A stretch of 37,335 nucleotides of DNA from Chitinophagales bacterium. GTDB taxonomy: Bacteria; Bacteroidota; Bacteroidia; Chitinophagales; UBA2359. Where the stretch lies: the NCBI GenBank assembly GCA_020630635.1, contig JAHDBB010000006.1, positions 1-37,335 on the forward strand. The letters run 5' to 3'. The position numbers and the translations under genes are program-made. Each line of letters opens with the position of its first letter. Position 1 is the stretch's first letter. The notes below the pieces were generated by a model, which was not told the origin of the DNA, did not search any database, and saw only the letters and a program-made list of their open reading frames with translations. Positions 8,341 through 24,407 of this stretch are shown in pieces.

Positions 8341-8377
8341 AAAGGAGATTCGCCTTGATGGTGAATCTCCTTTTTTT
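8341..8377 (+). terminator. Rho-independent terminator of sprA
   Basis: The hairpin arms are GGAGATTCGCC and GGTGAATCTCC with loop TTGAT and one G-U pair. An A tract precedes it and seven T follow. It starts 20 bases after the sprA stop codon. Confidence 0.88.
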
Positions 8378-8450
8378 ATGCCTTTTGAGACCTCTTCTAA
8401 GTTTGCCAAAGTTATTGATATATTTTACAATCAAAGCAAAAATGTATCGC

Positions 8451-8567
8451 TTCAATCGGATTGCTAACCTAGAAAAGAAGAGGCAATCCGATTGATAAAG
8501 AGAAAGGAGTCATTAATATAAATCAATCGGATTGCTGGTTCATACGGGAAGCCCCATCCGATTGAAA
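8451..8567. repeat. Four short repeats arranged as two inverted pairs
   Basis: TCAATCGGATTGC occurs at 8452-8464 and 8523-8535. Its reverse complement occurs at 8483-8495 (GCAATCCGATTGA) and, shortened, at 8556-8566 (ATCCGATTGAA). The order is direct, inverted, direct, inverted. The cluster sits between the convergent sprA and infB. It may fold into two hairpins or bind a dimeric protein; no function is known. Confidence 0.7.
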
Positions 8568-8649
8568 CGACTTACCTTTTCGTTGATTTTAGTCAACTTT
8601 AGTGAAACACTTAGACAGCTTGCTCTTTTTCATGTCAGTTTCTAAGCGG

Positions 8650-8801
8650 TTCAGTTACTGTGGGGACTGACCACAACCATCTAGCCCCGATAGAAGTGGT
8701 ATAGCAAAGTGCAGAGCTAGAAGATTTTGCGAAGCTTGCTATAAGAACGGATAGCGGGACTTTCCTGTACGACGAAGCTCCCAACCTTTCGCTCCTAAAA
8801 A
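8650..8801 (-). repeat. Structured intergenic element R, copy 2 (inverted)
   Basis: AGCCCCGATAG begins at 8683 and AAGAACGGATAGCGGGACT ends at 8761. The distal arm is ATAGCAA/TTGCTAT. The conserved tail GTACGACGAAGC is followed by TTTCGCTCCTAAAAA. Outside these, TTCAGTTA (8650-8657) and TAACTGAA (8813-8820) are complementary and could close the whole element. Confidence 0.85.
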
Positions 8802-8873
8802 TGAAAAATCACTAACTGAACTGCATTAATAATTGAGCATTCACCATTTACAATTATAACATTTATTTTATGA

Positions 8874-15603: not shown

Positions 15604-15759
15604 ATCAGTCACTATATGTTCTGCCCTTTCCTAAATAGCCCCGATAGTAGTGGTATGCTAAACGCAGCGTTGGCTAAAAGAATTTGCGAGGCTTTTAGCA
15701 TAAGAACGGATAGCGGGACTTGCTGTGACGATGGAAGAAAAGCCGTTCGCTCCTAAAAA
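15604..15759 (-). repeat. Structured intergenic element R, copy 4 (inverted)
   Basis: AGCCCCGATAG begins at 15637 and AAGAACGGATAGCGGGACT ends at 15720. The distal arm is ATGCTAAA/TTTAGCAT, and the loop holds the recurrent GCGTTGGCTA. The tail ends in TTCGCTCCTAAAAAT. It lies between divergent genes, about 60 bases upstream of the promoter-like boxes of the cargo gene. Confidence 0.85.
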
Positions 15760-16960: not shown

Positions 16961-17098
16961 TTTTGGAGCGAAGGGTTGGGGGTGCTTCGTCGTAATGGAA
17001 AGTCCCGCTATCCATTCTTATTCGTGTGGCTAGGTTTTTCTAAGCCAACGCTTCTACACGAATACCATTTCTATCGGGGCTATTTTGAAAGGTCTCAA
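16961..17098 (+). repeat. Structured intergenic element R, copy 5 (forward)
   Basis: TTTTGGAGCGAAGGGTTGGG leads to CTTCGTCGTAATGG, AGTCCCGCTATCCATTCTT at 17001 and ACCATTTCTATCGGGGCT ending at 17081. The distal arm is TTCGTGTGG/CTACACGAA with one G-U pair. It sits between two identical terminators, in the gap between the convergent cargo gene and rplQ. Confidence 0.85.
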
Positions 17099-24256: not shown

Positions 24257-24407
24257 TTTTTTAGGAGCGAATATTTGGGTGCTTTGTCGTAATGGAAAGT
24301 CCCGCTATCCGTTCTTATTGCTGTTGCTTTTCTGCAATATAACCCAACGCACACACAGCAATACCACTGCTATCGGGGCTATTTTGCATAGTCTCAACCT
24401 CTATCCC
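24257..24407 (+). repeat. Structured intergenic element R, copy 7, between rpsE and rpmD
   Basis: TTTTTTTAGGAGCGAA leads to GCTTTGTCGTAATGG, AGTCCCGCTATCCGTTCTT at 24298 and ACCACTGCTATCGGGGCT ending at 24380. The distal arm is TTGCTGT/ACAGCAA. It is the only one of the four operon-internal copies that reads antisense in the mRNA, showing that both orientations are tolerated there. Confidence 0.85.

Follow-up and report, generated by a model that had tools for sequence, protein, structure and literature searches.

Four inverted motif copies between sprA and infB of a Chitinophagales bacterium are the centre of an old MITE insertion, with similar hairpins at gene ends

The closest precedents for the element described here are SPRITE and the REPINs. 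SPRITE of Streptococcus pneumoniae is a dispersed, MITE-like terminator repeat that lies near gene 3' ends and is enriched between convergent genes, and its co-option as terminators has been suggested (PMC3049150). Like SPRITE, the element studied here is MITE-like and dispersed, and combines a terminator-like hairpin with a U-rich tract near 3' ends. SPRITE, however, ends in AAAA/TTTT and has a single 18-bp stem, and no duplication of its target has been demonstrated; the present element differs in its inverted repeats of 21 bp, its duplications of 8 bp and its one to three inverted hairpins, and a separate set of hairpins is found at gene ends. REPINs and BIMEs (PMC3116915, PMC2817692) share with it highly conserved inverted ends, a variable loop, alternating orientation and decayed solitary copies, but here the conserved arms lie inside a larger element that has duplications of 8 bp, and we found neither a RAYT association nor a GTRG or CGTC tag. 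RUP, BOX, ERIC, Correia/NEMIS and Chunjie (PMC10969869) are similarly short, palindromic and non-autonomous, sit mostly between genes and have terminal inverted repeats as well as target duplications; here, in contrast, conservation is higher in the internal arms than in the terminal repeats, and 72-nt hairpin units vary in number. MITEs are already known as a class, and this element is a variant of it.

The window (the whole 37,335-nt stretch of DNA that was analysed) contains four alternating inverted copies of a short motif after sprA, as the initial annotation had claimed, with the fourth copy partly changed (Table 1). They lie in the gap between sprA (+ strand) and infB (- strand), past a terminator-like hairpin of sprA at 8341-8373 and before one of the annotated "R elements", which are Rfam Flavo-1-like repeats. 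The 10-mer TCAATCGGAT occurs four times in the window against 0.05 expected, a count reached in none of 100 shuffles, and the fourth arm keeps this 10-base core exact at 8556-8565. The gaps between arms are 18, 27 and 17 nt (20 for the last when arm 4 is counted as its 10-base core); this spacing had been called uneven, and the gaps are indeed as given, but across copies the arrangement is regular, with distances of 31, 41 and 31 nt from one arm start to the next, giving a 72-nt repeat. The cluster is not a CRISPR, as already recognised, since its repeats alternate in orientation and its loops are related sequences and not unique spacers. An nhmmer model built from 30 complete copies of a dispersed element aligns to the window over model positions 7-238 of 240 (envelope 8389-8624; by eye, the inverted repeat starts at 8387). 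No clear 8-bp duplication is left flanking the window copy. The four arms are the centre of an old, degraded MITE insertion in the sprA/infB convergent gap.

Table 1. Parts of the motif cluster and of the surrounding element in the window
Feature	Position	Strand	Basis
Degraded copy of ~240-bp palindromic MITE	8387..8624	+	nhmmer E 9.8e-55, 184 bits
Degraded left terminal inverted repeat, GAGACCTCTTCTAAGTTTGCC (consensus GGCTACCCGTCTAAAGTTGCC)	8387..8407	+	alignments
Arm 1, TCAATCGGATTGC	8452..8464	+	repeat search
Loop 1, 18 nt, differs between copies	8465..8482	+	copy alignment
Arm 2, reverse complement of arm 1	8483..8495	-	inverted repeat I10
Inter-hairpin linker, TAAAGAGAAAGGAGTCATTAATATAAA; consensus length 28 nt	8496..8522	+	copy alignment
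Arm 3, TCAATCGGATTGC	8523..8535	+	repeats D7, I7
Loop 2, 17 nt	8536..8552	+	sequence
Arm 4, CCCATCCGATTGA	8553..8565	-	common arm-4 variant; inner three bases unpaired
Degraded right terminal inverted repeat, GTCAACTTTAGTGAAACACTT	8592..8612	-	alignment

The window also holds copies of Flavo-1 (RF01705) at 15633-15724, 16997-17085, 24294-24384 and about 8642-8824. This genome gave at least 150 scored matches to that family, at least 145 of them over the cut-off, and a 22-base core related to it occurs about 300 times in 0.94 Mb; Flavo-1 thus resembles a dispersed repeat more than it does one sRNA gene. An association of the MITE with Flavo-1 was considered and is unconvincing: it holds for 32 of 47 elements, but also for 56% of points placed at random in intergenic DNA.

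Read from one end, the MITE consists of a 21-bp terminal inverted repeat, a 44-nt subterminal stretch, hairpin 1 (13-18-13), a 28-nt linker, hairpin 2, about 38 nt and the other terminal repeat. Each hairpin follows the formula TCAATCGGATTGC-N18-GCAATCCGATTGA, and in all but two of 128 hairpins (126) the loop measures 17-19 nt. The consensus as a whole is a near-complete palindrome, with a predicted folding energy of -118.8 kcal/mol for one strand and -138.2 kcal/mol for the other. Most copies have two hairpins, but 168-bp copies (L072, L104) have one and L069 has three, which indicates that hairpin units are gained and lost. The terminal repeat, GGCTACCCGTCTAAAGTTGCC in the 30 seed copies, is flanked by exact 8-bp target-site duplications in 16 cases among the copies with both inverted repeats and by 8-bp pairs with one mismatch in six more; at the other lengths tested, from 4 to 12, there was no exact case. 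With a length of ~240 bp, no transposase gene and many dispersed copies, the element can be securely assigned to the MITEs on its sequence, and its copies appear to have spread by transposition.

Several copies are rearranged. At L105 3122-3431 one MITE apparently lies inside the linker of another, and at L079 14795-15032 the hairpins are intact and the linker is inverted. Half-loops occur in several combinations among copies, as if swapped at the loop centre, and together with the inverted linker this suggests recombination within the palindrome. The same stretch, two hairpins with an insert between them, is present on two contigs (L093 4586-4894 and L102 1264-1574). A second small repeat, with ends ACGTGAACTCGGA / TCCGAGTTCACGT, lies beside the MITE copies L071, L072, L076, L113, L119 and L122; in several copies of this repeat the MITE occupies an identical position close to the repeat's end, and a part of the MITE copies therefore probably arose by duplication of a single insertion.

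The draft assembly is fragmented (6.32 Mb in 739 contigs, 87% complete, with many contig ends in repeats). At no more than one mismatch, it contains 481 copies of the 13-mer, 234 forward and 247 reverse, compared with two for a reversed control; there is thus a large excess of the motif genome-wide, contrary to the lack of excess that the initial annotation had named as a refuting outcome, and its strand bias, which the initial annotation had proposed to count, is nil. This number of copies would supply the arms for about 120 elements, and the dispersed ~240-bp element is present in about a hundred copies in this bacterium, with 57 copies scoring at least 115 bits in 0.94 Mb. The enrichment in convergent gaps that was anticipated for a structural site exists but is mild (14 of 47 elements, p=0.013), as expected of tolerated insertions, and does not support such a site; with copies inside a transposon and no strand bias either, a chromosome-structuring role is unsupported. 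The suggestion of a small mobile hairpin proved right in kind: the copies are dispersed, and their terminal inverted repeats and target duplications of 8 bp are those of a MITE.

The element is close to restricted to this genome. The pattern AATCGGATT-N8-22-AATCCGATT occurs 178 times here (G000) and once each in G017, G037 and G095, and is absent from the other 96 of the 99 relatives searched; with the hairpin itself nearly absent from them, conservation of the cluster in close relatives could not be shown. Among 84,980 species represented by one genome each, a search that may leave out records of the window's own genome, the exact hairpin appeared in two records, both Saprospiraceae or Chitinophagales MAGs. 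Full MITE copies are present in two separately deposited MAGs. The relatives' copies L123 and L124 lie on short contigs of MAGs otherwise devoid of the exact hairpin; mis-binning of these contigs is possible, and their non-repeat DNA does not occur in this genome. Plasmid and phage records held nothing matching the window copy, and the exact hairpin was not found in viral contigs.

A candidate source of the transposase is a 1670-bp insertion sequence (L063 1-1670, contig C112) whose terminal repeats are perfect over 25 bp and, in their first 19 bp, identical to those of the MITE. Its coding region consists of a half matching DUF6399 (E 1.8e-45) and a half with a weak HTH match, in different frames that overlap at a T7 run; programmed frameshift, decay or an assembly error may each account for this split. 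The insertion sequence is present in one copy in the assembly, and contig C112 begins at its first base, so there is no left flank in which to find a target duplication. It carries no arm array, a single 9-of-10 match in its coding sequence being at chance level. DUF6399 (PF19936) is a Pfam family of unknown function. Its members in cyanobacteria and Thiodictyon share with the present protein the C-terminal domain, an N-terminal HTH-like region and the motifs DET, VSD and SSxVEGRNG, but are encoded in a single frame (524-558 aa) where ours is split at the T7 run; terminal repeats around the gene were found in Thiodictyon and were not convincing in two cyanobacteria. The motifs would be compatible with a DDE enzyme. 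A search of solved structures with the DUF6399 half gave no credible match, and none of the 99 relatives, in which the MITE is also nearly absent, has a DUF6399 gene. With its shared ends, the insertion sequence is the only candidate mobiliser of the MITE that was found.

Outside the MITEs, hairpins are found mostly directly 3' of genes. A motif search over both of our samples, allowing one mismatch per core arm, yielded 27 gene-end hairpins with the stem AATCGGATT..AATCCGATT at 5-46 nt after the stop codon in 1.42 Mb, their core conservation being in part a product of how they were selected. They have the anatomy of intrinsic terminators, a stem-loop soon after the stop codon and then a U-tract: the next 12 nt contain 5.85 T on average, compared with 2.51 after MITE hairpins (p=9e-11), and the first MITE hairpin, read inward, has no U-tract next to it (TAAAGAG). 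Their core is kept while the inner pairs of the stem vary, with both partners changed (G-C, A-T), and the 14-23 nt between core arms show no fixed spacing. The genes concerned are diverse, many with apparent signal peptides (by eye). The counts free of core-selection bias are those made without the motif, from the longest stem within 110 nt 3' of each ORF end (ORFs of at least 450 nt). TCGGAT was the most frequent stem 6-mer, both in a MITE-masked first sample (13 of 123 stems in 0.94 Mb), whose contigs were mostly picked for the motif or element ends, and in a second sample (9 of 70 stems in 0.48 Mb), in which MITEs were unmasked and contigs C13 and C39 had been picked for holding the motif. 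The position of TCGGAT, always on the 5' side, was rejected as evidence of orientation, because a hairpin of the form A..A' gives this reading whichever strand is taken; the informative feature is the loop direction of solitary copies alone, and the loop had been chosen by likeness to two loop words.

By this anatomy, the gene-end hairpins are probably the intrinsic terminators of their genes. We infer common descent of the MITE and gene-end hairpins, and prefer co-option of MITE hairpins as gene terminators, with the reverse direction, capture of a terminator by the MITE, nearly as likely. In the explanation that we favour, and consider likely as a whole, the cluster in the window belongs to an old insertion of a non-autonomous DNA transposon (MITE), nearly palindromic throughout and holding two hairpins. 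A DDE-type reaction on the 21-bp terminal inverted repeats would have moved its copies, duplicating 8 bp of the target, by an enzyme that is probably that of the DUF6399 insertion sequence with the matching repeat. The hairpins of the MITE would form terminator-like structures in RNA for transcription arriving from either side, and the solitary hairpin cores at gene ends would act as intrinsic terminators, an activity read from their anatomy.

The arms are by far the best conserved part of the element. Among 26 distinct complete copies the mean pairwise distance is 0.006-0.09 in the arms, as opposed to 0.15 in the inverted repeats, 0.18 in the linker, 0.22-0.31 in the subterminal stretches and 0.30-0.42 in the loops, and when copies were collected with flank models blind to the arms, the adjoining 10-base core was exact in nearly all of 105 usable flanks. 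Shared variants are much rarer in arms than elsewhere (2.7% vs 14.1%, p=5e-69), while private, post-insertion mutations are only slightly so (8.5 vs 13.0 per 1000, p=0.07; p=0.001 in otherwise invariant columns, but these columns are thereby selected), which places the constraint mainly on the lineages that spread. We have dropped the idea that old copies keep their arms by function, selection on arms after insertion being at most weak.

Such a pattern is what a site used in movement would give, and it is possible, though on balance unlikely, that the arms are DNA sites for a protein (transposase, accessory factor or regulator), a rival to be taken seriously and close to the protein-binding array among the suggestions of the initial annotation. 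The sequence of an arm comes near to an odd palindrome (CAATC-G-GATTG). With distances of 31 and 41 bp between arm starts, or about three and four helical turns, four bound dimers would lie on one face, a phasing that is based on two numbers only. The higher conservation of arms than of inverted repeats and the tight loop lengths fit the same explanation, as does the core being kept as a sequence: across the 10 core pairs of 110 distinct hairpins, changes break the pair in 94 cells and are compensated in six. The candidate insertion sequence, on the other hand, lacks the array, and the variable distance between core arms and the U-rich tails of the gene-end hairpins are better explained by RNA. 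A bolder extension of the terminator explanation, which we regard as doubtful, is that a species-specific factor recognises AATCGGATT/AATCCGATT, as RNA hairpin or as DNA, and that the MITE, bearing this signal both ways, seeded about 100 genes with terminators of conserved sequence; 3'-end formation across one genome would then have been rewired by a family of transposons.

The hairpin could instead be a REPIN-like replicator in its own right, which a RAYT-type Y1 transposase would move and which the MITE would have captured. REPIN anatomy (PMC3116915) is matched in the conserved inverted ends and the variable loop, and also in the tandem arrays and the decayed copies that stand alone, and some 12 solitary hairpins have flanks lacking detectable MITE similarity. 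We consider this improbable: the motif was not found within the loci of the four Y1_Tnp genes of the assembly, there is no GTAG or CGTC tag, and solitary copies cluster at gene ends. Most motif copies, moreover, lie within elements having 8-bp duplications, which Y1 enzymes are not known to make. A DNA-uptake signal, as in Neisseria and Haemophilus, would also be a species-restricted short motif, often an inverted pair after genes, and inverted pairs of those signals often double as terminators. Uptake signals are, however, numerous as single copies, many within genes, whereas of the 60 sites outside MITEs in 0.94 Mb, 46 belong to inverted pairs, which leaves too few singles and makes this very improbable. 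Finally, a chance cluster or an assembly artefact, for which one could cite the incomplete draft and its many contigs ending in repeats, can be dismissed in view of the 481 copies against two in the control, clean 8-bp duplications at many separate sites and full copies in two separately deposited MAGs.

If the explanation that we favour is right, DUF6399 proteins would gain a candidate function, that of an insertion-sequence transposase. One conserved hairpin would then be common to a mobile element and to the terminators of genes in one genome, and the direction of the exchange, from transposon to terminator or the reverse, would be testable with close relatives.
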